This document shows positions 1,190 through 19,046 of a stretch of DNA of 64,000 bases, piece after piece. The position numbers and the translations under genes were made by a program. The notes under the pieces were generated by a model. It had not been told where the DNA came from, searched no databases, and saw only the letters and a program-made list of their open reading frames with translations. The DNA is from Kordiimonas sp. SCSIO 12610. Lineage in GTDB: Bacteria > Pseudomonadota > Alphaproteobacteria > Sphingomonadales > Kordiimonadaceae. Where the stretch lies: NCBI RefSeq assembly GCF_024398015.1, contig NZ_CP073747.1, forward strand, positions 1,002,501 through 1,066,500. Direction: 5' to 3'. Within the stretch, counting starts at the first letter, position 1. Each line of letters starts with the position of its first letter.

Positions 1190-1618
1190 ATGACAGCTTT
1201 ATCTGTGGTTCCGCTTCAGGTGGCCGTTTATGATGCGCTTATGGCCGATAGCGATCTTTCGGCGCGTATTACCGGCATTTATGATGAGCCGCCTGCGGGC
1301 GCGCGCATGCCCTATATCGCCTTTGGCGACACGTCGATCACGGTCGCTGACACTAAAACACTGGAGGGCAGCACTGTTGATTTTGATGTGAGTGTCTGGT
1401 CAGGGGATATGGGCCAGATGGAGGCGAAGGAAATCATGGCGCTTGTCGATAGTATCCTTCATACCGCTGACCTCCATATTCAGGGCCAGGACCTTGTGTA
1501 CCTGCGCCTTCAAAACGCGGGGGTGGTGCGCCAGTTCCGGGCTACAGGCAGTCTCTATCGCGGGCGGCTTTCCTACCGTGCCCGATTATTCAACAAAACG
1601 GATACCGTGGCCGGGTAA
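1190..1618 (+). CDS. DUF3168-type tail terminator/completion protein
   Basis: 142 residues, start ATG preceded by ACAGGAT. The sequence matches the DUF3168 pattern: an N-terminal helix with LQVAVYDALMAD, then IYDEPPAGARMPYIAFGDTS, a DFDVSVWS strand and a C-terminal strand ending in RGRLSYRARL. In siphophages and gene transfer agents this family forms the ring that ends the tail tube and joins it to the head, and it normally sits just upstream of the tube protein, as here. It is the first gene of the module; no head-tail connector, capsid, portal or terminase gene precedes it, only divergent PEP-CTERM genes. Confidence 0.85.
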   Translation: MTALSVVPLQVAVYDALMADSDLSARITGIYDEPPAGARMPYIAFGDTSITVADTKTLEGSTVDFDVSVWSGDMGQMEAKEIMALVDSILHTADLHIQGQDLVYLRLQNAGVVRQFRATGSLYRGRLSYRARLFNKTDTVAG

Positions 1619-1705
1619 CCGTTCTGAACAACCGTTCGGTATTTTCTGTATTTCTTAAACCTTCCCAATTCTTCCCAATCCCTCTAACATTTCCGGAGAT
1701 TTACA

Positions 1706-2110
1706 ATGACAGCACAAGCTGGCAGAGAGCTTTTATTGAAACTTGAAAACAGCGGCAGTTTTGTTGCCGTTGGCGGGTTTAAAAGCAATAGTTTTTCCAT
1801 CAATGACCAAACCATCGAAATTACGAACAAGGCCTCTGGCGGGTTTCGTGAAATTCTGGCGGGCGCGGGTATCCGCACTGTTTCCGCGAGCGGAAGCGGC
1901 GTTTTTGTCGATGACGCAATGTTTGCCGAGGTGAACCAGATGGTCCTGAGTAGCACCCATGGTACCTGGCAGATCATTGTGCCTGATTTCGGCATCTATG
2001 AAGGTCGTTTTGCGGTCACCAGCCTGGATATGAGCGGCGAATATAACGGCGAGGTTAGCTATGATATCTCGCTTGATAGCGCTGGTCCGATCACCTTCAC
2101 TGCTGAATAA
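1706..2110 (+). CDS. Phage major tail tube protein (TP901-1 family)
   Basis: 134 residues, start ATG with GGAG seven bases upstream. The N-terminus AGRELLLKLENSGSFVAVGG and the segments SFSINDQTIEITNKASGGFRE and GEVSYDISLDSAG are characteristic of the TP901-1/GTA major tail protein family, whose members stack as rings to build a non-contractile tube. Length is normal for the family. It lies between the tail terminator and the tail chaperone genes, the standard order. Confidence 0.88.
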   Translation: MTAQAGRELLLKLENSGSFVAVGGFKSNSFSINDQTIEITNKASGGFREILAGAGIRTVSASGSGVFVDDAMFAEVNQMVLSSTHGTWQIIVPDFGIYEGRFAVTSLDMSGEYNGEVSYDISLDSAGPITFTAE

Positions 2111-2126
2111 GTTGGGGCACGGTATA

Positions 2127-2531
2127 ATGGCAAAGAAAATTGCTGGCGAGGGCCGGCTGAAGGTTGGGGCGCGGTCTATGCGCCTGCGCCTTGATATCGG
2201 CACCATGATGGACCTTGAGGATCATTTTGAAATGGGTTTAGTGCCGTTTTTGAATGAGCGCCTCCCCGAATTTCGCCTCGGTGATGTGGCGGTTCTTTAT
2301 ATGGCGATGACGTCCAAAGGGGATGAAACCCCTGATTTTGGGAGTGCGGAATTGCGCCGCGCAGCCGCAGCAGATGTGATCAAGGCCGGATTGAACGAGG
2401 CCGCGACCGCGATCGCAGCCTGCCTTACAAACACCCTGATGCCTCAAGAGGGCGCGAAACAAAAAACATCAGAAAGCGTATCAGAGGGCACATCAGGAAC
2501 GATATCGGGACCGACATCTGAGGGAAAGTAA
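2127..2531 (+). CDS. Tail assembly chaperone, GTA gp10 / lambda gpG-like
   Basis: 134 residues from the ATG at 2127; an in-frame start at 2061 would overlap the tube gene and add an unrelated N-terminus. The core (GEGRLKVGARSMRLRLDIG, then a Met/Leu/Glu-rich helical part) fits the GTA_gp10 family encoded between tube and tape measure genes. Residues 115-134 are five tetrapeptide repeats (SESV, SEGT, SGTI, SGPT, SEGK) coded by five 12-nt units at 2469-2528. The last unit contains GGGAAAG directly before the UAA stop, which allows -1 frameshifting into the next reading frame. In lambda the equivalent pair gpG/gpGT chaperones tape-measure and tube assembly. Confidence 0.85.
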   Translation: MAKKIAGEGRLKVGARSMRLRLDIGTMMDLEDHFEMGLVPFLNERLPEFRLGDVAVLYMAMTSKGDETPDFGSAELRRAAAADVIKAGLNEAATAIAACLTNTLMPQEGAKQKTSESVSEGTSGTISGPTSEGK

Positions 2532-2551
2532 GCGGGGGCGCCCACGCCCGC
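2522..2551 (+). promoter_or_regulatory. Candidate -1 programmed ribosomal frameshift signal
   Basis: GGGAAAG at 2522-2528 lies in frame as G-GGA-AAG and is followed at once by the UAA stop (2529-2531) of the gpG-like gene. A GC-rich stem-loop follows: GGGCG (2536-2540), loop CCCA, CGCCC (2545-2549), extendable by 2532-2533 with 2550-2551 across a two-base bulge. The same heptamer is the lambda G/GT slip site. A -1 shift reads AAA GTA AGC and continues in the downstream frame to 2767. Confidence 0.8.
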
Positions 2552-2767
2552 GGTATTGACCCTGATGGTAATGCGATCAACTGGGCTTGGCTTTTGGAAG
2601 CGGGGGCAATGCTCGGCTGGCCACCTGATACGCTTTACGGGGCCACGGTTCCCGAACTTATGCTTGCCCTTCAAGGCTGGAAGCGGGCGAATGGGTATGC
2701 CGTTGATAATGCACCCACTGTTATGACCCGCGAGCGCCTCAATGAAATTTTGGAAAGATACACATAG
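2528..2767 (+). CDS. Frameshift-encoded chaperone extension (rcc01693/Phage_TAC-like, lambda T analogue)
   Basis: This frame is open from 2522 to the TAG at 2765-2767. It has no ATG, GTG or properly placed start before the conserved part; the first ATG (2609) lies inside it. The product of a -1 shift at 2522-2528 continues VSGGAHARGIDPDGNAINW and includes WAWLLEAGAMLGWPPDTLYG and ATVPELMLALQGW, the pattern of the small tail chaperone found between gp10 and the tape measure in alphaproteobacterial phages and GTAs. The fusion would be about 213 residues. The stop lies three bases before the tape-measure ATG (2770). Confidence 0.8.
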   Translation, partial: VSGGAHARGIDPDGNAINWAWLLEAGAMLGWPPDTLYGATVPELMLALQGWKRANGYAVDNAPTVMTRERLNEILERYT

Positions 2768-2769
2768 CT

Positions 2770-3612
2770 ATGACCCCATTTTCATCCATCCCTGCGTTTG
2801 GAAATCCATTTGCAGGCACATCGTCGCTTGTACCACCCGTATTTTCAAACGGGTTTGGTGTCTCTGGTGTTTCATTCAGCAGTCTAGGCATTCAGGTCCA
2901 GAATATCGCGCAGGCGATCATGGATGTGGGCGCCCAAATGGGCGGAGCCGCGACCACGCTTGCCGTGAAAACGGCGGGGCAGGTGGCCCAGAACCTTTCT
3001 GGCACCAAGGGGGGTAATCCCGCGGCTGCAAATGCCGGAAATGCGGGTGCGGGCGGTAATACGCCCCCGAAATCCAAAGGGTTTCTGTTGCCGCCAGAAT
3101 TTGATCTGAAGGCGGGGATAGAAGGCGTGTTCACCAAAGCGGCCAGCGATTTTGGCAGCCTGTTTTCCAATTTTGATGGTAGTTTTAAAAACCTGTTCAA
3201 GGATTTCAAAGGGTTTTTCAAGGGCTTTGGGAATCGTATTCTGGGCGGCATTGGCGGTGTGTTCAAACAGGCCGCTGGCGGTATTTTGAAAAACCTTGTC
3301 GGGGCAGGGCTTGGCTTCCTTGGCATTCCTATTCCGGGTTTTGCGGGCGGCGGGCGCGTGCAGGCGGGTGTTCCGGCGCTTGTCGGCGAACGCGGGCCAG
3401 AACTGATTGTACCGCAGCGCACAGGCACCGTGATGAATGCAGCCTCCAGCCGGAAAGCGATGGCCGGACAGCCTGTAACCCTTAATCAAACCGTGAATTT
3501 TGACCTTCAGCCTGCGCCCACAATCAGCGCGATGATTGACGCGAAAAAGCCCGAAATTGTTCATGCGGCCACCATGGGTGCCTTGCAGGCGATCCAGCGC
3601 GGTGGAATTTAG
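2770..3612 (+). CDS. Short phage tail tape measure protein
   Basis: 280 residues. It has a Gly/Ala-rich middle, Phe-rich amphipathic segments (LFKDFKGFFKGFGNRILGG) and the C-terminal signature FAGGGRVQAGVPALVGERGP then ELIVPQRTGTVMNA, which is common at the end of tape measure proteins. Siphophage tape measures are usually 600-2000 residues; this length is closer to GTA tape measures (about 220). With the usual ruler relation (about 1.5 angstrom per residue) the tail would be only about 40 nm. It directly follows the chaperone frame and precedes tail-tip genes. A truncated remnant is possible, but both ends look native. Confidence 0.8.
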   Translation: MTPFSSIPAFGNPFAGTSSLVPPVFSNGFGVSGVSFSSLGIQVQNIAQAIMDVGAQMGGAATTLAVKTAGQVAQNLSGTKGGNPAAANAGNAGAGGNTPPKSKGFLLPPEFDLKAGIEGVFTKAASDFGSLFSNFDGSFKNLFKDFKGFFKGFGNRILGGIGGVFKQAAGGILKNLVGAGLGFLGIPIPGFAGGGRVQAGVPALVGERGPELIVPQRTGTVMNAASSRKAMAGQPVTLNQTVNFDLQPAPTISAMIDAKKPEIVHAATMGALQAIQRGGI

Positions 3613-3702
3613 GGTATGGAATTTAACGCGCCCAAAAGCCAGTCACTACATATTCCAGTCATCAAATAATTCAGCAAAAGCATGCCTTTAGAGAGATCAT
3701 AA

Positions 3703-4308
3703 ATGATACCTATCGAACCACCTGCTGGTCCGGCCCCGGTCGCCAGCGAGTTTTATATTGAACGCAACCAGATCAAGACCGAAAGTTTTTCCAAACTGTC
3801 GCAAATCCAAAGCAATCCGGGGGACCGCTGGATCGGGAAAATCACCTTGCCCGTTTTAAGCGCGGATCAGGCCGCGGACTGGCTTGGTTTTTTTGATGCG
3901 CTTGATGGTTTCATCGGGTCCTTTTGGTTATCGCATCCTGATTACACCGAGCTTCGTGGTAGCGCGCGCGGCAGCACGTCAGGCCGCGTGTTCGGCGATA
4001 TGCAGCGCGGCAGCATCCTTTCAACCGATGGCTGGGCACCCAACCTGTCGGGCGCGTTCAGGCGCGGTGATATCATTCAGGTAGGGGATAAGCTAAAGCG
4101 TGTTGTTGAGGACGCGGACACCGACAGTGTTGGCCGGATATCCCTTAAAATCGCACCCAAAATCTATACACCCATTCCAGACAATACAGCGATTGCCACC
4201 AGCAACCCGCGCGGTATCTTCCGGCTGGCTGAGGGGTTTGTGGCTCCAAGCGCGGATGAGATGCGCCGCCACACGATCAGCTTCGCTGTTGAGGAGCTTT
4301 TACTATGA
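3703..4308 (+). CDS. Tail-tip (distal tail) protein, siphophage type
   Basis: 201 residues. The sequence (GDRWIGKITLPVLSADQAAD, then a segment about a single-domain size limit, GFIGSFWLSHPDY) resembles the small protein that follows the tape measure in many alphaproteobacterial siphophages, in the position of GTA g12. The stop overlaps the start of the next gene by four bases (ATGA at 4305-4308), implying translational coupling. It probably forms the ring between tube and tip (inference from position); no enzymatic motif is seen. Confidence 0.65.
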   Translation: MIPIEPPAGPAPVASEFYIERNQIKTESFSKLSQIQSNPGDRWIGKITLPVLSADQAADWLGFFDALDGFIGSFWLSHPDYTELRGSARGSTSGRVFGDMQRGSILSTDGWAPNLSGAFRRGDIIQVGDKLKRVVEDADTDSVGRISLKIAPKIYTPIPDNTAIATSNPRGIFRLAEGFVAPSADEMRRHTISFAVEELLL

Positions 4309-4991
4309 CCCGTCCTGATGTAAGCAATGATATGCAAACCGCGCTGAAGGGTGCTGAACTGACGGCATTGCCGATTGTGCATCTGGATTTTGCTGGCGAC
4401 CCTGTTTATGCGTGGGGCGGTGTTGGTGACTTGAGCTGGAACGGTGAAACCTGGCTAGGTGTTGGTAATTTGGGGGAAATCGGCACGATCCAATCGGACA
4501 TTAAGGGCAGTATCCCCTCGCTTGAATTATCCCTCAATCATATTGACCGTGAAATATTGGCATCTGCGCGGGGGCAAAGTTTTATGGGGCGCAGGGGCCG
4601 TGTTTGGATTGGTGTTTTTAATGATGATCAAACGCTTATCAGCGATCCCGCCCTTTTTTATGCTGGCGAGATTTCAAACCTTACGATCAGTGACGGCACT
4701 GATCCCTCGATCAATGTGGTTATCGATAGCCGCCTTTCGCTTTTGAAACGCGTGCGCCCAACCTACCGAACGCAGGAAGACCACCTGCGGCAGCTTGATA
4801 AAGCGGGAATTACAGTGAACGACCGCTTCTTTGAATTTGTGCCGTCGCTTCTTAATAAAACGATCTATTGGGGCCTTCGGGAACCAAGCCCGGGGCGTGG
4901 CCGCGTTGGTGGCTCTAGCGGCGGTTTCGCTGGTGGTTTTTCAGGCGGCTTTGGCGGCCTCGCGGGGCCATCCCTAAGCGCAGAAAGATAA
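4305..4991 (+). CDS. Tail-tip protein, DUF2163-like family
   Basis: 228 residues, start ATG overlapping the previous stop. Motifs such as LPIVHLDFAGDPVYAWGGVG, DLSWNGETWLGVGNLGEIG, then SLELSLNHIDREIL and RRGRVWIGVFNDD match a widespread siphophage tail protein found upstream of the NlpC/DUF6950 and host-specificity genes. The C-terminus (residues 202-221, 4908-4967) is a GGFx repeat with a 12-nt period. Structural tip/hub component by position; exact family name is uncertain. Confidence 0.65.
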   Translation: MTRPDVSNDMQTALKGAELTALPIVHLDFAGDPVYAWGGVGDLSWNGETWLGVGNLGEIGTIQSDIKGSIPSLELSLNHIDREILASARGQSFMGRRGRVWIGVFNDDQTLISDPALFYAGEISNLTISDGTDPSINVVIDSRLSLLKRVRPTYRTQEDHLRQLDKAGITVNDRFFEFVPSLLNKTIYWGLREPSPGRGRVGGSSGGFAGGFSGGFGGLAGPSLSAER

Positions 4992-4995
4992 GATT

Positions 4996-5436
4996 ATGAC
5001 GCTAAGGAAAGCCGATTGGCAGGCCAATTTATTGGCGGCTGTGCGCGACAAAAAGCACACAGTGTTTGAGTATGGCAGCCATGATTGCTGCACGGCGGCT
5101 GCGGATGTGATCAAGGCCGCTTTTGATATTGACCTGATGATCGGACTTCGCGGGCGATACCGCAGCGCAGCAGGGGCCATGCGCGTGATCAGAAATGAGG
5201 GTTTTGATGACCTGCGAGGCCTAGTTACCGCAAGGGTTCAGGCGCACGGCGGTAAACCTATCGCGCCCGCGTTTGCGACGATGGGCAACCTCGTGATGAC
5301 CGATACGGCACTTCATGACCAAACGCGGGGTGAAGCCGTCGGGGTATGCGCTGGCCGAAAATTTCTGTTTCCTGGCGAGGTTGGATGGATAACTTTAGGA
5401 CGCGGGGATCTTATAACCGCGTTTCGGTTATCTTAG
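4996..5436 (+). CDS. DUF6950-type tail-associated protein
   Basis: 146 residues, starting four bases after the previous stop. The N-terminal half has a YGSHDCCTAAADVIKAAFDI motif, followed by RGRYRSAAGAMRVIRNEGFD. This is the pattern of small phage proteins in the slot of the NlpC/P60-like tail peptidase; the HDC motif resembles a papain-like Cys/His start, but the second catalytic His is not obvious, so peptidase activity is uncertain. It precedes, with an intervening accessory gene, the tail tip/host-specificity gene, as in GTA g14-g15. Confidence 0.65.
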   Translation: MTLRKADWQANLLAAVRDKKHTVFEYGSHDCCTAAADVIKAAFDIDLMIGLRGRYRSAAGAMRVIRNEGFDDLRGLVTARVQAHGGKPIAPAFATMGNLVMTDTALHDQTRGEAVGVCAGRKFLFPGEVGWITLGRGDLITAFRLS

Positions 5437-5566
5437 TCAAAGTCGCCATTGGTTGCCGTAGCGCATTTTGATACATCAATATGAACAGACGTCTCAGAAT
5501 TTTTTCATAATCACCGAGTATCCAATTGGTGCGGCTTCTTGAAGGCCGCTGATAGTGCCTTGCCTG

Positions 5567-5593
5567 TTGAATAGATATATCGTTTAGTATAAT
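5567..5593 (+). promoter_or_regulatory. Candidate sigma-70 promoter of the embedded membrane gene
   Basis: TTGAAT at 5567-5572 and a perfect TATAAT at 5588-5593, separated by 15 bases, lie 44 bases before the ATG at 5637. The spacing is slightly short. With the terminator at 6144-6170 it would make the following gene independent of the tail operon. Confidence 0.45.
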
Positions 5594-5636
5594 GCAAAAT
5601 ACGCGTTATGATTTTATGAATATTGTGGAGGGGGAA

Positions 5637-6116
5637 ATGACGTACGAATTAACCGAAGCTGAAAAGCGTGAACGGGAACGCGAATTAGGCTGGTATTGGG
5701 TCGGTGTTGAGGATCATTTCACGGCTCGGGCTGCCGCGCGCAGGGGATCGTGGGTCGCTTTTTATGTTGTCGTCAGCTATATCGTGACGACTGCATTCTT
5801 ATTTTTTGCAGATGCAGATATTGCCCAGGTTGGTTACGTTAACGAGACTGAAAAATTATACGGGCTGATTGGCAATATCGTTTTCATGGTGATGTTTCTG
5901 GGCCTTGGTTTGGCAATACGGTGGGGCAAGTTCTTCGCTGTTCCGATCGTTTTTTTCTTATATTGTGTTGAATTATACTTTATTTTTCAAGGGGCACTTT
6001 CCGCGGGTCTTTTTGTAAAATTATTGTTTTTATTATACGGGGTTAACGCGATGATTGGTTGGTGGAAGTTAAAGAAATATCCTGATATGGAAAAGGTTGA
6101 ACAGGTGTTTGACTGA
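5637..6116 (+). CDS. Four-helix membrane protein inserted in the tail operon (moron-like)
   Basis: 159 residues from the ATG at 5637, chosen because GGAGGGGG lies just upstream; an earlier in-frame start at 5592 has no such site. A charged N-terminus (TEAEKRERERELGWYWVGVE) is followed by four hydrophobic segments at about residues 43-62, 80-98, 103-122 and 124-140 and a short cytosolic end. This arrangement (soluble RERE-type N-terminus plus 2TM-like segments) is seen in uncharacterised bacterial membrane proteins, and I recognise no phage function. It has its own probable promoter and terminator and interrupts the tip genes, as expected for a lysogeny-expressed cargo gene. Confidence 0.7.
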   Translation: MTYELTEAEKRERERELGWYWVGVEDHFTARAAARRGSWVAFYVVVSYIVTTAFLFFADADIAQVGYVNETEKLYGLIGNIVFMVMFLGLGLAIRWGKFFAVPIVFFLYCVELYFIFQGALSAGLFVKLLFLLYGVNAMIGWWKLKKYPDMEKVEQVFD

Positions 6117-6143
6117 TTTCAAATTCCACCTAATACAATGCTT

Positions 6144-6170
6144 AAGTCGCCCTTAGAGGCGGCTTTTTTT
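6144..6170 (+). terminator. Rho-independent terminator
   Basis: A six-pair stem GTCGCC/GGCGGC (one T-G wobble, 6146-6151 with 6158-6163), extended by AA/TT, has a loop CTTAGA and is followed by seven T. It ends the membrane gene 5637-6116, 94 bases before the large tail gene. Confidence 0.8.
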
Positions 6171-6263
6171 GTGCTTGAATTTAGCGCACTTTGCCGTTGG
6201 TTTCTTACCAGTCGCTAATCAAGCCATTCTTTTTCTTCTTTTCTAAATTTCTCAGGAAAATTC

Positions 6264-9200
6264 ATGGGTAAAATTGTTAAAACCACGCTGTTTTTTGCAG
6301 CGGCGGCCGCGATTGTTGTGGCAACAGGCGGTGCTGGCGCCGGGCTTTTAGGTGCGTCTTTGACAACTGCGGGTACGCTCGGTGTTGGCTTGACGACGGG
6401 GGCCGCAATCTTTGGCGGGCTTGTTGGTGCGGGGCTTGGTATCCTCTCCTCGATCGCGGCGCCAAGTGCGCGCGAAGTGGGGGAGCAGGCTGGCCTGAAG
6501 CTGCCTATCACAAACGCGGTCGCAAGCCGGCAGATCATTTACGGCGAAATGCGGGTTGGTGGCTCCGAAGTGTTTATTGAAGAATATAACACGTTTGAAA
6601 GCGACCGTGGCCGCGACGATGATATCCCCAATGATGCCCTGATTTACGTGCGTGCGGTCGCTGATCACCCGATTGATGGGTTCGTTAGCTACCATATGGG
6701 CGACCGTGAAATCCGGTTTGATACCAGCAAATCCCAGAATCTCGAGAACGGTGGTAACGCGATTGGGGATCTGCGGGATTGCCTATATTTGAGCGAGCAT
6801 GATGGAACACAAACCCTTGCTGACCGAAAATTAACCAGTGTTCCCACCCTTGGCTGGGGTGCGGGGCACGTTGGGCGCGGTATCGCCTATTTTACCGTGC
6901 GTGCCCAGTTTGATCAGGATAAATACCCTTATGGCCCGAGCGAAATTCGGAACCTGCGCGTACAGGTGCGCGGGAAGCGGATTTATGACCCCCGCCTTGA
7001 TAGCACACGGATTGAAATTGGCGGCGACGGGCCGCAGCGCCTTGGTGACACGGCGACATGGGCATATTCCCAAAACCCCGCGCTCGTTATTTATGATTTT
7101 CTGCGGGATGATACGCTTGGGAACGCGGTTCCCGATGATGAAATTGATATTAGCTCGATTGTGGACGCCGCCAACATCGCTGACGAACGGGTGCCGGTGA
7201 AATCGGGCGGTACGATCCCCCGCTATACCTTTAACGGTGTGATCGACGGTAACCGGGATAAATATGCAAATATTTCTTCCATGCTATCCGCGATGAGCGG
7301 GCGCATTATGTGGCTTGGCGGTAAGGTGCATATTTTCGCGGCCTATCCCGATATGGAAACCGAGCGTTTTCAGTTTGATGAAGATAATGTGTTTGCGGCA
7401 CAGCTTCTGCCGTTGCCGCCGATTGAACGGCGTTATAACGAGGTACGCGGTACATTCCTAAGCCCCGAAGACGGCTTTGAACCGCAGGATTTTCCCCCTG
7501 TTGTTGATGCGGCCGCGCAAGCAGAGGAAGGGGCGGTTGTTTTCAACCTTAATCTACCTTTTACCCATGACCACAGGGAGGCGCAGCGGCTAGCGCAAAT
7601 TGCTCTCAGGCAGGCGCGTCAGCCCATGCTTCGGCTGGAGGCGCAGCCCATTGGGGCCGCGTTTGCGCCGATGGATGTTGTCGCCGTATCCTGGAGAAAT
7701 CTGGGCGTCGGTTTTTCCGGTGGACCTTCTAGCGAGGTCCCAACCCCCGAAGATTTCAGGATTACCGAACAGTCAATCTCTGGCGGGCAGGGCGGGCAGC
7801 CCATGCGCGTGCAATTGGGCCTGACGCGCGAGGACGCAAGCATTTATGCGTGGGACGCTGCGGTTGACGAAAAGGACCGCAATATCCCGGTGACCCTCAG
7901 GCAACCAACGGGGCTTGAAATGGTTGAACCACAAGGGGTTACCGCAAGTCCGACCACTATTCGCCGTCAGGATAATAGCGAGGTCGCAGCCCTTAGCGTT
8001 AGTTGGGAAACGCCTTTGTCGCTCGTCAGTGAAACCTATGTGGATGTGAGGCCAGCAGATAGTGCGGTTGATGCGGCCTGGATCCCGATCAGCACGGTCA
8101 ATCGTTTCGAGAGCGATATCATCATTACTTTGCCGGAAAATACAGTGGTTGAGGTGCGGGTTCGCCACAAGCTTTTGAACGGGATGATCAGCACGCCCGT
8201 GATCGTCACTGCCACCACGGATGATGTTGGCGGTGACGGCGGTGGTATCACATGGGCGACGCTCGGCGGCGAGGGAAAACCAAGCGACTTTGCCGATGTA
8301 ACGGCTGATAATCAGGTTGTGTTTGGCAGGCTGTGGGATTTCAATAATAACGCCCTTGGCTGGACCGCGATCGGTGGAACGCTTGATAACTCTTTCGGGT
8401 TGATGACCATCACCGCGACAAGCGCAGACCATCAACTTATTAGCCCATCAGGCCTTGGTATTCGAGGCAGCGAATTTGGTGCAATCGTCCTAAGGGTTGC
8501 CCGCAAAGTTGGTGGGTCGGTGGATTTTGAGGAAACACGGGCCTTCTATCAAACAGCGGGGCCAAACGGCCATGATTTTGACGCAGGCTTTTTCCGCCGT
8601 GCACCGCGCAGGTTCGAACAAGGAGTGTTCACCACCTTTGTTTTCGATATGGAAAACCTGACGCAAGGGGGCAGCGACTGGCAGGACAGCATCATTGACC
8701 GGATCAGGATTGATCTTTCGGAAACTGATAATGATGCCTTTGATATTGATTATATCGGGATTGCGCGCATTGGTGTTGGGGATGTGGTGGATGGGAACGG
8801 GGTGAACCTTATTCCAAATGCCTATCCAACCATCACAGATGCAAGCGATACTGATGATGAAAGCCAGTTGGTCGTAGAGCCGATTGCAAACCTTGGCTTG
8901 GAAGCGGGAGACATTATCTCTGCGTCGATGCAAATCCGCGCGCCGGATGCGCGCGCTGGCACGCTTGTAATGCGCTTTTTCGGGTCGGGTGATACCAAGG
9001 TTGGCGAGGATTTCACAAGCATTCCGGTTTCTAATCAGGCTGTGTTTGAAACCGTTCGGATCAACGGTATCGAAATTCCGGCGGGCGCAGAGCGGGTGCG
9101 GCTTTTGATGCAGCGAAGCGATGGTGTATCTGGTGTGGTTGTCGGCAGGCGACCAGCCCTTAATATCGGGTCACGGGCCTTTGCGCCAACACCTGTTCGC

Positions 9201-10625
9201 CCTGATATCGAGGAAGGGGCAACACGCACGCTTGGCCGCGGTGAATATCAGGCGGGTATTGAATACAAGAAGGGTGACGTTGTTACCTATGAGGGGAGCA
9301 GTTATCTGTTTATCGGCGATACGGCAGCCACCGGCAGCACGCCACCAAACGCCAACTGGCAAACGCTTTCGGAACGCGGGCAATCGATCACGGTTGAGTA
9401 TGCGCCGTTTCCAAACGGGCCGTGGGATAGCACATTTGGTGCTGAAGACCTGTTTATGCGCCAACGCATCGGGGACGGTGCCTTTAGCGCGGCTATCCGC
9501 ATTGTCGGCGAAGAGGGGGGCGCGACCGACTATCGTTTCCGCCGTGACTTGAATACACCATCCCGGCCAAGTGATGCTATACCAAGCGGATGGTTTGACC
9601 AGCCGCCAAGCGGTGTTTTCCCCCTATGGATGATCCAGGCGCGGAAAAGGCCCGATGGTAGTTTCGCGGACGGGGCAACATGGTCAACACCTGTCCGCCT
9701 GACGGGTGAAGACGGTGCTGATGGCACAAATGGCCCAACCTATGCAGGATTGATAAACAATAGGGGCGGGACGGGTATTGATCGTAATACCATATATTTC
9801 TGTGGTTACACGGACGGCGCTATTGATATTGATAAACCGGCACGGATTGCGCGCCCTGACGCTCAGGGGCAATTTTTCGAATTTGGGGGCGTACGCGGGC
9901 AAACAAGTGCAGCACTAAGTGAATCGTCATTGTTGGCCAACACTACGGGTAGTAATGGAACTTGGTATGTTGTTGTTGAAACCAATGGAACTCGTCCCTT
10001 TGTTAATCGGGTAACCACCAATTTTGCAAGAACCCATGCGGCTATAGCGAAACGAGTGAATGGTGAATGGGTGTATGATAAATTTGCAGATGCAGATACC
10101 CCGATCACGGTAACACCCTCAATGGTTATTATCGGTCAGGTTGATCGTTTTCGGGATTCCGAAGGTGGTGAAGGGTTTCTGGAATTCATACCATTCTACA
10201 GCTCGCTTGCGGCCGCACCATCAATTGGGGCTCCGAATACAGAACACATACCGGCGACATCACTGGGCGGCACCTATACGCTTGAGCCGATTGCACCGGC
10301 CCGCGGTGTTGACGCAGGCAGCTCAGCAACAATTCATGTCGATCCGTCAACGCTTTATCTAGGTGGGCGAGAGATTGCTTATTTGAGTGGAAATATTCCG
10401 GGGTTAGCCTTCAGCACTTATTATCATGTTTATGCAATCGATCCGCATCTGAACGGCCGTAACGTCCAGTATCTTGCAATAACCGATCGCACGATGTTGC
10501 CGGAAGGGCATATCTATTTTGGCCTTGTGCGCACGCCCGCAAATGGCGGTTCGACCACAGGGGGAACCCCGGGTGGCTTTGGTGGTGGCGGCGGTGCCTA
10601 TGACCCCACCTTCATCTATCCGTAA
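6264..10625 (+). CDS. Tail tip/host-specificity protein (lambda gpJ-like)
   Basis: 1453 residues, start ATG after AGGAAAATTC. Residues 1-75 are Gly/Ala-rich and hydrophobic, then comes the conserved start of J-like tip proteins (ANAVASRQIIYGEMRVGG is approximated here as NAVASRQIIYGEMRVGGSE). The middle carries the tip hub with TIPRYTFNGVIDGNR and a fibronectin-like part around 560-650. A jelly-roll carbohydrate-binding-like region lies near 840-980 and a chitin-binding type 3-like segment (GIEYKKGDVVTYEGSSYLFI) near 993-1012. The C-terminus ends in a Gly-rich stretch. It should form the central tail fibre that contacts the host surface. The variable C-terminal third probably sets specificity (inference). 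Confidence 0.85.
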   Translation: MGKIVKTTLFFAAAAAIVVATGGAGAGLLGASLTTAGTLGVGLTTGAAIFGGLVGAGLGILSSIAAPSAREVGEQAGLKLPITNAVASRQIIYGEMRVGGSEVFIEEYNTFESDRGRDDDIPNDALIYVRAVADHPIDGFVSYHMGDREIRFDTSKSQNLENGGNAIGDLRDCLYLSEHDGTQTLADRKLTSVPTLGWGAGHVGRGIAYFTVRAQFDQDKYPYGPSEIRNLRVQVRGKRIYDPRLDSTRIEIGGDGPQRLGDTATWAYSQNPALVIYDFLRDDTLGNAVPDDEIDISSIVDAANIADERVPVKSGGTIPRYTFNGVIDGNRDKYANISSMLSAMSGRIMWLGGKVHIFAAYPDMETERFQFDEDNVFAAQLLPLPPIERRYNEVRGTFLSPEDGFEPQDFPPVVDAAAQAEEGAVVFNLNLPFTHDHREAQRLAQIALRQARQPMLRLEAQPIGAAFAPMDVVAVSWRNLGVGFSGGPSSEVPTPEDFRITEQSISGGQGGQPMRVQLGLTREDASIYAWDAAVDEKDRNIPVTLRQPTGLEMVEPQGVTASPTTIRRQDNSEVAALSVSWETPLSLVSETYVDVRPADSAVDAAWIPISTVNRFESDIIITLPENTVVEVRVRHKLLNGMISTPVIVTATTDDVGGDGGGITWATLGGEGKPSDFADVTADNQVVFGRLWDFNNNALGWTAIGGTLDNSFGLMTITATSADHQLISPSGLGIRGSEFGAIVLRVARKVGGSVDFEETRAFYQTAGPNGHDFDAGFFRRAPRRFEQGVFTTFVFDMENLTQGGSDWQDSIIDRIRIDLSETDNDAFDIDYIGIARIGVGDVVDGNGVNLIPNAYPTITDASDTDDESQLVVEPIANLGLEAGDIISASMQIRAPDARAGTLVMRFFGSGDTKVGEDFTSIPVSNQAVFETVRINGIEIPAGAERVRLLMQRSDGVSGVVVGRRPALNIGSRAFAPTPVRPDIEEGATRTLGRGEYQAGIEYKKGDVVTYEGSSYLFIGDTAATGSTPPNANWQTLSERGQSITVEYAPFPNGPWDSTFGAEDLFMRQRIGDGAFSAAIRIVGEEGGATDYRFRRDLNTPSRPSDAIPSGWFDQPPSGVFPLWMIQARKRPDGSFADGATWSTPVRLTGEDGADGTNGPTYAGLINNRGGTGIDRNTIYFCGYTDGAIDIDKPARIARPDAQGQFFEFGGVRGQTSAALSESSLLANTTGSNGTWYVVVETNGTRPFVNRVTTNFARTHAAIAKRVNGEWVYDKFADADTPITVTPSMVIIGQVDRFRDSEGGEGFLEFIPFYSSLAAAPSIGAPNTEHIPATSLGGTYTLEPIAPARGVDAGSSATIHVDPSTLYLGGREIAYLSGNIPGLAFSTYYHVYAIDPHLNGRNVQYLAITDRTMLPEGHIYFGLVRTPANGGSTTGGTPGGFGGGGGAYDPTFIYP

Positions 10626-17318: not shown

Positions 17319-17948
17319 ATGAATTTCCCTCGTTTTACGCGCTTTGCTCGGCGCTCAACGGGCGCTGATCTGTGGGCGGATGCGCGTGTGCTTAGCCCGC
17401 ATTTTACCCTTTCTGAATTCACGCGTTCTGACACGGCCAACAAGCATGGCATCAATAATCACCCCACTGAATTGCATGAGCTGGAGAATATGAAGGCGCT
17501 TGCAGGTAGCGTGCTGGAGCCGGCGCGGCAGATTATCGGGCGGCCCCTTTTTATCACCTCTGGCTACCGATCGTCTGCGCTTAACCGTATTATCGGCGGC
17601 GCGCGCCATAGCCAGCACATGCTGGGTGAGGCCGCGGACTTTATCGTGAAGGGCGCGGATATGCATGAAATCGCGGAAACGCTGACGGCGCTTGATAGCA
17701 TTCCGTTTGATCAATTGATCTTTGAAAACCGCTATAATGAAGGCAGGCGTAATGGCAGCCAAAAGAGAGGTCAGGGGGGCTATAAGTGGACCCCTAATTG
17801 GACTCCCGAATGGACTCAGTGGGTCCATATTTCCCATCGCCGCATGGGTGAAAATAGGGGTGAGGTGCTGACGACCGCGAAACAGGGCAATAAACGCCGA
17901 ATAGTGCGCGGCATTGTGGCACCAGAAATGGTCCTTTCGTCAGCATAA
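17319..17948 (+). CDS. Phage M15-family peptidase (endolysin)
   Basis: 209 residues. It has the Peptidase_M15_3 layout: LSPHFTLSEFTRSDTANKHG near the N-terminus, LFITSGYRSSALNRIIGG, then SQHMLGEAADF (the S-x-H-x-x-G-x-A-x-D zinc motif) and WVHIS with the last zinc His. These enzymes cut peptidoglycan peptide bonds. There is no signal peptide, so it needs the holin that follows 41 bases downstream. Just before WVHIS is an unusual repeat KWTP NWTP EWTQ coded by three 12-nt units (17784-17819), lengthening the loop next to the active site. Confidence 0.85.
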   Translation: MNFPRFTRFARRSTGADLWADARVLSPHFTLSEFTRSDTANKHGINNHPTELHELENMKALAGSVLEPARQIIGRPLFITSGYRSSALNRIIGGARHSQHMLGEAADFIVKGADMHEIAETLTALDSIPFDQLIFENRYNEGRRNGSQKRGQGGYKWTPNWTPEWTQWVHISHRRMGENRGEVLTTAKQGNKRRIVRGIVAPEMVLSSA

Positions 17949-17989: not shown

Positions 17990-18412
17990 ATGGGTATTCC
18001 CGTACTTGATACGATTTTGGATGTGATCAAAACGCCGCTTGAACGCTTGATCCCAGACAAAAACAAGAAGGCAGAGTTCGAGCACGCGCTTCAGATTGAG
18101 GTTCTGAAGGCCGGCCTCGGCCAGATGGAAATTAATAAGGTTGAGGCCGCGCACAAAAGCATTTTTGTTGCCGGGTGGCGTCCGTTCATTGGCTGGGTTT
18201 GCGGCTTTGCACTCGCGTGGCATTTTATCCTTTATGATATTGCGGTTTGGGTGCAGCTATCGTTTTTCCCCGCCTCCCCACAGCCACCGGCCCTCAATGG
18301 TACTGAAACATTGATCACTGTTCTTTTGTCCATGCTTGGCCTTGGTGGGTTGCGTACGGTTGAGAAAATCAAGGGCGTCGCCCGCGAGGGGATAGTGGGG
18401 AAGAGTGAATGA
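17990..18412 (+). CDS. Holin, three-TM family
   Basis: 140 residues, start ATG after AGGAGAC. The N-terminus IPVLDTILDVIKTPLERLIP, an amphipathic middle (EFEHALQIEVLKAGLGQMEI) and two or three hydrophobic spans (KSIFVAGWRPFIGWVCGFAL, then ILYDIAVWVQLSFF and a GLGGLRTVEK end) are typical of the Holin_3TMs family beside M15 endolysins in alphaproteobacterial phages. Its last 110 bases are repeated, with about ten differences, at 18923-19046. Confidence 0.85.
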   Translation: MGIPVLDTILDVIKTPLERLIPDKNKKAEFEHALQIEVLKAGLGQMEINKVEAAHKSIFVAGWRPFIGWVCGFALAWHFILYDIAVWVQLSFFPASPQPPALNGTETLITVLLSMLGLGGLRTVEKIKGVAREGIVGKSE

Positions 18413-18548
18413 TCAAAGACGATTTTTGTATTTCACTTTTACCTTACTATTTCGATCATCTCTCCACCTTTCACAGAGGCGCGATTGATGCTAAAATTTA
18501 TGGTAGGCTGCATTGCATGCACAAAGTAAGTGTTTTGGATCGATATAA

Positions 18549-18902
18549 ATGAGTATAATATTAAAAAAATCATACTACTATTTGTGGACTGAAATATTGG
18601 ATTATAAGAATATTTATTGGCCGCGAACAAAAGGGATTATATTGATCTTTTCAGTAGTGACAGCCATAAGGCTATTTCATGAATATTCAGAAGCTGAAGG
18701 CCTAATAAATGCGGTATCAAATTCGCAAGATTTATTAGGCACGTTCCTATTATTGTTTACGGTTTTGATGGCGCCTTTTTTAATCTTAAGGGTTTGGGGC
18801 AAGTATCTATATGTCAGTAAAAGATGCAAAAAAGGTGAGGATATTTGGAACAAGCAACGCAACCCATGGCAATTGTATTTAGATTACGATGCGCAAAGGT
18901 AA
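18549..18902 (+). CDS. Small membrane protein between two copies of the holin 3' end
   Basis: 117 residues, AT-rich compared with the holin. It has two hydrophobic segments (about residues 29-43 and 62-82) and charged ends. No family recognised. It lies in a roughly 510-base stretch bounded by the holin stop and by a second holin 3' fragment, so it seems to have come in with a recombination event at the lysis locus. It could be an accessory lysis or superinfection-immunity protein, but nothing in the sequence shows this. Confidence 0.55.
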   Translation: MSIILKKSYYYLWTEILDYKNIYWPRTKGIILIFSVVTAIRLFHEYSEAEGLINAVSNSQDLLGTFLLLFTVLMAPFLILRVWGKYLYVSKRCKKGEDIWNKQRNPWQLYLDYDAQR

Positions 18903-18922
18903 GATTTTCATCCTTTGAGAAG

Positions 18923-19046
18923 TGAAACATTGATCACTGTTCTGTTGTCCATGCTTGGCCTCGGTGGGTTGCGCACGGTCGAGAAAATCAAGGGCGTCGC
19001 CCGCGAGGGGATCGTTGGGGCAGATAAGAAATCAGGAAATAAATGA
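18923..19046 (+). pseudogene. Duplicated 3' fragment of the holin gene
   Basis: The fragment reads in frame as ETLITVLLSMLGLGGLRTVE, then KIKGVAREGIVGADKKSGNK and TGA, nearly the same as the C-terminus of the holin at 18304-18412. There is no start codon or upstream coding part. It marks an insertion or unequal recombination at the end of the holin. Confidence 0.85.

Follow-up and report, generated by a model that had tools for sequence, protein, structure and literature searches.

A predicted lambda-type -1 frameshift linking two tail chaperone frames in a chromosomal tail cluster of Kordiimonas

How is a tail assembly chaperone translated when its reading frame overlaps that of the preceding chaperone and offers no start codon? 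This question is raised by a tail module of Kordiimonas sp. SCSIO 12610, located in a 64,000-nucleotide stretch of DNA (contig NZ_CP073747.1, positions 1,002,501 to 1,066,500, hereafter the window) from a complete 3.5-Mb genome related to Kordiimonas and other Kordiimonadaceae. Two overlapping frames are flanked there by the genes for the tail tube and the tape measure (Table 1), and a first-pass annotation had proposed that a lambda-type -1 frameshift joins them. The heptamer, the conservation of its register in relatives and the missing start codon all support this proposal, and we give a probability of roughly 93% to a programmed -1 ribosomal frameshift of the lambda G/GT type, yielding the chaperone and a minor 213-aa fusion. 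Such a frameshift is of the textbook phage-lambda kind and already known (Levin 1993; Xu 2004; reviewed in PMC5009743); the addition of Kordiimonadaceae extends its range, and the less expected part, worth following further, is the alternation between frameshift and ordinary start codon in one and the same gene pair.

Table 1. Features of the tail chaperone locus, in window coordinates
Feature	Position	Strand	Basis or content
Tail module, GTA-like order	1190..10625	+	terminator, tube, two chaperones, tape measure, distal tail, hub, DUF6950, 1453-aa tip protein
Major tail (tube) protein, expected partner of the -1 domain	1706..2110	+	Phage_tail_2, E 1.5e-34
Upstream tail assembly chaperone, g10-like, Phage_TAC_11, 134 aa	2127..2531	+	Pfam 25.2 bits, E 1.7e-5
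C-terminal linker, five imperfect 12-nt units (TSES VSEG TSGT ISGP TSEG)	2466..2525	+	codon-shuffle test
Slippery heptamer G GGA AAG, for predicted -1 ribosomal frameshifting	2522..2528	+	sequence, in-register conservation
-1 frame extension, Phage_TAC_6 (g10.1-like) domain	2522..2767	+	Pfam 21.5 bits, E 3.2e-4
0-frame UAA stop, immediately 3' of the heptamer	2529..2531	+
GC-rich hairpin, possible weak stimulator	about 2533..2553	+	-14.4 kcal/mol, z about -1.3
Tape measure protein, short (280 aa), expected chaperone partner	2770..3612	+	PHROG tape measure, E 1.5e-7

Reading frames and slip site

Profile searches placed the upstream protein in Phage_TAC_11 and the -1 frame in Phage_TAC_6, in both cases slightly below the curated cut-off (25.2 against 27.8 bits and 21.5 against 23.4 bits, respectively), and the Phage_TAC_6 domain was present in 42 of 149 related genomes. 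NCBIfam provided a name for neither chaperone, and neither Foldseek nor a sequence search of solved structures returned a chaperone match in the PDB. The AlphaFold model of the upstream chaperone (pLDDT 81) matched viral models named tail assembly chaperone, at best with a TM-score of 0.64-0.67, a probability of 1.00 and an E-value of 0.009, the tail chaperone matches in the viral model library having E-values of 0.009 and 0.03.

The upstream gene, whose homologues share a start at MA.., ends in GAG GGA AAG TAA (2520-2531), so that GGGAAAG is read as G GGA AAG and abuts the UAA, as the first-pass annotation had described. It had also stated that a slip of one base enters an open downstream frame devoid of a usable start codon, and both statements hold: the shifted reading is GGG AAA GTA AGC GGG... 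(G K V S G G A H A R) and continues from 2522 to a TAG at 2765-2767, with a predicted fusion length of 213 aa, while ATG, GTG and TTG are all absent from this frame ahead of the Phage_TAC_6 domain. There is no space for a start further upstream, because the frame opens at 2522, right behind a TGA (2519-2521) that bounds it on the 5' side. GGGAAAG itself is found at 302 sites when both strands of the 3.5-Mb genome are counted, or ~4e-5 per position. From the slip site onward, the differences that separate this locus from a same-genus relative (L002) number 22, 16 and 42 at the first, second and third codon positions of the -1 frame, with a concentration in third positions.

Ahead of the stop, the upstream chaperone carries a linker that had been described as five 12-nt repeats, the last of which is the slip site, and as a spacer possibly grown by duplication. 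Since Tandem Repeats Finder gave no score for the 12-nt units, a codon-shuffle test was applied instead: identity at lag 12 reached 27 of 47 positions, where codon shuffles gave 14.4 (P 0.0016 over lags 6-18), and windows of the linker scored highest among the tail genes at this lag. The repeats are thus statistically real but imperfect, and the heptamer only begins inside the last unit, extending past it into the following AAG. A spacer grown by repeat duplication is plausible, since the same-genus relative L002 lacks these 12-nt repeats and homologues have linkers of anywhere between 3 and 54 aa ahead of the slip site. The Eilatimonas locus has repeats of its own. A separate locus (L076, genome G305) contains three in-register copies of GGGAAAG, at spacings of 12 and 24 nt, within a repetitive linker 5' of the TAC_6 domain.

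The GC-rich stem-loop noted earlier shortly after the slip site is present, but its folding energy is unexceptional (z from -0.3 to -1.9), and relatives display a mean z of -0.71 and no common shape. Being neither significant nor conserved, it was not supported as a stimulator and should carry no evidential weight.

Conservation of the slip site and competing explanations

A search for the heptamer in homologous alphaproteobacterial tail loci had been suggested as a check of the proposal. As the TAC_6 alignment was too variable for scanning sequence collections, g10 was chosen as the probe, and 92 unique g10/g10.1 pairs from relatives, from the class and from viral contigs were assembled and classified by profile searches (one of them, L021, by hand, since the automatic call had split its g10 frame). 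In the tree of these 92 pairs, 30 of the 31 loci of the Kordiimonadaceae clade carry a heptamer in the same register and inside the overlap, GGGAAAG in 28 and AAAAAAG in 2. The flanks of the heptamer have diverged, with ~0.2 bits per column in the 28 GGGAAAG loci aligned on it, and a stop codon follows after 0 or 1 codon in 16 of 27 GGGAAAG relatives. Codon permutation of the 57 -1-frame pairs without an ATG start led to an expectation of 2.4 GGGAAAG heptamers against 30 observed, and to 6.1 against 47 for a wider set of heptamers that entered the scan after inspection of the data, the related loci being in both counts statistically non-independent. Judged from these comparisons of sequences, the slip site is under selection and not accidental.

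The same comparison bears on the possibility that the downstream gene is translated alone, through a non-standard start or re-initiation after the UAA at 2529, the heptamer being incidental. Termination-reinitiation is common in phage operons, and the counterparts of this gene in related families do possess an ATG or GTG that overlaps the stop of the upstream gene. However, here and in 20 other loci of the clade the -1 frame holds no ATG, GTG or TTG ahead of the domain, and in the 9 of 30 heptamer-bearing clade loci where one of these codons does occur its position is not conserved. Moreover, the heptamer is kept where starts are missing (45 of 54 pairs) and almost absent where a start exists, either ATG or overlapping GTG (5 of 35), making separate translation of the second gene very unlikely.

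We attach a still smaller chance to the frame change being a degenerate, functionless fusion in a decaying remnant cluster. Foreign genes, such as those encoding PEP-CTERM-like proteins and a 1667-aa protein, do interrupt the cluster, but those structural genes that were found have uninterrupted open frames, and across the family both the heptamer and the protein sequence of TAC_6 are maintained, with change biased towards third positions. Slippage of the RNA polymerase instead of the ribosome, for which the AAAAAAG of two relatives would also be suited, is the least credible of these explanations, given that most of the clade uses GGGAAAG, with homopolymer runs of at most 3.

Proposed mechanism and the lambda model

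Under the programmed ribosomal frameshift, most ribosomes would terminate at the UAA at 2529 and release the 134-aa chaperone, while in a minority the glycyl- and lysyl-tRNAs paired with GGA AAG would move back by one base onto GGG AAA, and these ribosomes would read through the TAC_6 domain to 2767, producing the 213-aa fusion. The only tRNA-Lys found in the genome has the anticodon UUU, the tRNA list (38 entries) being incomplete and missing for instance Ala-TGC and Ile-GAT, and a pattern search of the genome for a CUU tRNA-Lys also yielded no tRNA. A tRNA-Lys UUU alone is the situation that makes AAG slippery in E. coli. The sequence G_GGA_AAG is highly shift-prone in that species, and the G/GT pair of lambda undergoes low-level -1 frameshifting with a gpG:gpGT ratio of 30:1 (PMC5009743). 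From the shift-prone heptamer, the lambda ratio and the sole tRNA-Lys found, we infer a low level of -1 frameshifting, with the chaperone as main product and a rare fusion.

On the lambda model, the abundant chaperone would coat the tape measure protein, tail tube subunits would be brought in by the rare fusion, and the ratio of the two would set tail assembly. The first-pass annotation had held that a lack of fusion product in particles would speak against the frameshift. This reasoning is not valid, since both gpG and gpGT are missing from mature lambda virions (PMC5009743) and particles are therefore the wrong place to seek the fusion. The likeness with lambda has its bounds: the proteins belong to the TAC_11 and TAC_6 families and have no sequence-level membership with lambda G and T, the tape measure is short, and the element is chromosomal with no integrase near.

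Related lineages and the surrounding cluster

Loci from other families of this order, and others elsewhere in the class, open the second gene with an ATG or GTG that overlaps the stop of the first; this second gene is often in the other frame, and a heptamer is lacking. A homologue with a normal start had been put forward as a refutation of the frameshift; such homologues do exist, in genome G005 within the family and in start-type loci of related families, but they belong to separate lineages without the heptamer and thus represent an alternative solution and not a refutation. A quick tree built on both chaperone domains requires at least 9 changes between the two modes, and for the start group the well-supported branches force 4 by themselves. 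Eight loci without a start near the domain (L061, L062, L065, L066, L067, L074, L077 and L084) carry CCC TTT inside the overlap, on the conserved PF.W motif of the second domain (mostly PFPW), and CCCTTTC/T/G is probably another slip motif.

Phage records add to this picture. The g10 protein of the window retrieved only one weak match, the tail tube protein being the better probe; of the eight viral records with a related tail module that were examined (L153-L160), six were found via the tube protein and two via the chaperone. In every one of the eight, the overlap contains a heptamer in register. As in Kordiimonas, the second gene lies in the -1 frame in Sinorhizobium phi2LM21, Oceanospirillum GJ44, Alteromonas PB15, Pseudoalteromonas PHS3 and Desulfofustis LS06-2018-MD02, but their heptamer varies between GGGAAAG, GGGAAAC, AAAAAAG and CCCAAAG, and AAACCCT belongs to two further records (1, 2, 1, 2 and 2 occurrences over the eight, respectively). 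Unlike our reading of the Kordiimonas locus, these records describe two separate genes, the second one being annotated in 7 of 8 from an internal ATG 3' of the first stop; these annotations are likely truncated versions of a frameshifted gene. Gene calling misses or truncates the second chaperone of such clusters.

We consider it slightly favoured that this orthologous chaperone pair, in alphaproteobacterial phages and GTA-like tails, has switched repeatedly between -1 frameshift and ordinary overlapping start, using several slip motifs (G GGA AAG/C, A AAA AAG and probably C CCT TTC), and that a coupled start may have replaced the frameshift in domesticated lineages. If the latter is true, a fixed ratio or the fusion itself would be dispensable for very short tails, and the contrast within one gene pair represents a natural experiment on whether a short tail needs a fixed chaperone-to-fusion ratio, or a fusion at all. 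Our search, from which subscription journals were mostly excluded, found no published report of a g10/g10.1 frameshift in gene transfer agents. At L143 (genome G042), the region near the g10 stop combines a GGGAAAG in register with an ATG that overlaps this stop, a possible intermediate between frameshift and coupled start. One genome contains three g10 matches (L102, L136 and L152, on contigs C23 and C35 of G315), two of them ~1 kb apart.

The cluster shares its gene order and both chaperone gene families with clusters like the gene transfer agent of Rhodobacter capsulatus (RcGTA). Genes for the terminase, HK97 portal, prohead protease, HK97 capsid and connector are found in the ~19 kb that precede the window, interspersed with several unrelated genes, and the whole follows the RcGTA-like succession of terminase, portal, protease, capsid, connector, terminator, tube, two chaperones, tape measure, distal tail, hub, peptidase-like protein and tip, apart from the foreign insertions. 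No integrase was found within 450 kb of the cluster. Both g10 and g10.1 fell short of the curated cut-offs given above, and in a quick tree of the two the Kordiimonadaceae loci occupy a branch of their own, separate from the other families of the order (SH-aLRT 96). Because of this separate branch, filing as an RcGTA-type gene transfer agent was rejected. In the GTA-like loci of the class with the clearest TAC_6 scores (e.g. L058 and L059), through which the comparison was made, the ATG of the second gene overlaps the first stop, whereas a frameshift is needed here.

Several neighbouring genes were recorded alongside. A 1667-aa predicted protein encoded between the prohead protease and capsid genes (L031:7777-12780, G000:C1:991776-996779) looks, judging by its sequence, like a repeat-rich surface protein. 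Genes for small PEP-CTERM-like secreted proteins, with VPEPATW near the C-terminus, are scattered among the head and tail genes (455-1036 on the minus strand, L031:2945-3661 and 18219-18932). The product of 17319-17948 resembles, by eye, M15-type peptidoglycan peptidases and is a possible endolysin of the cluster. Further downstream, an array of large proteins with glycine-aspartate-rich, RTX-like repeats (22826-62134) displays near-identical C-termini, suggesting recent duplication.
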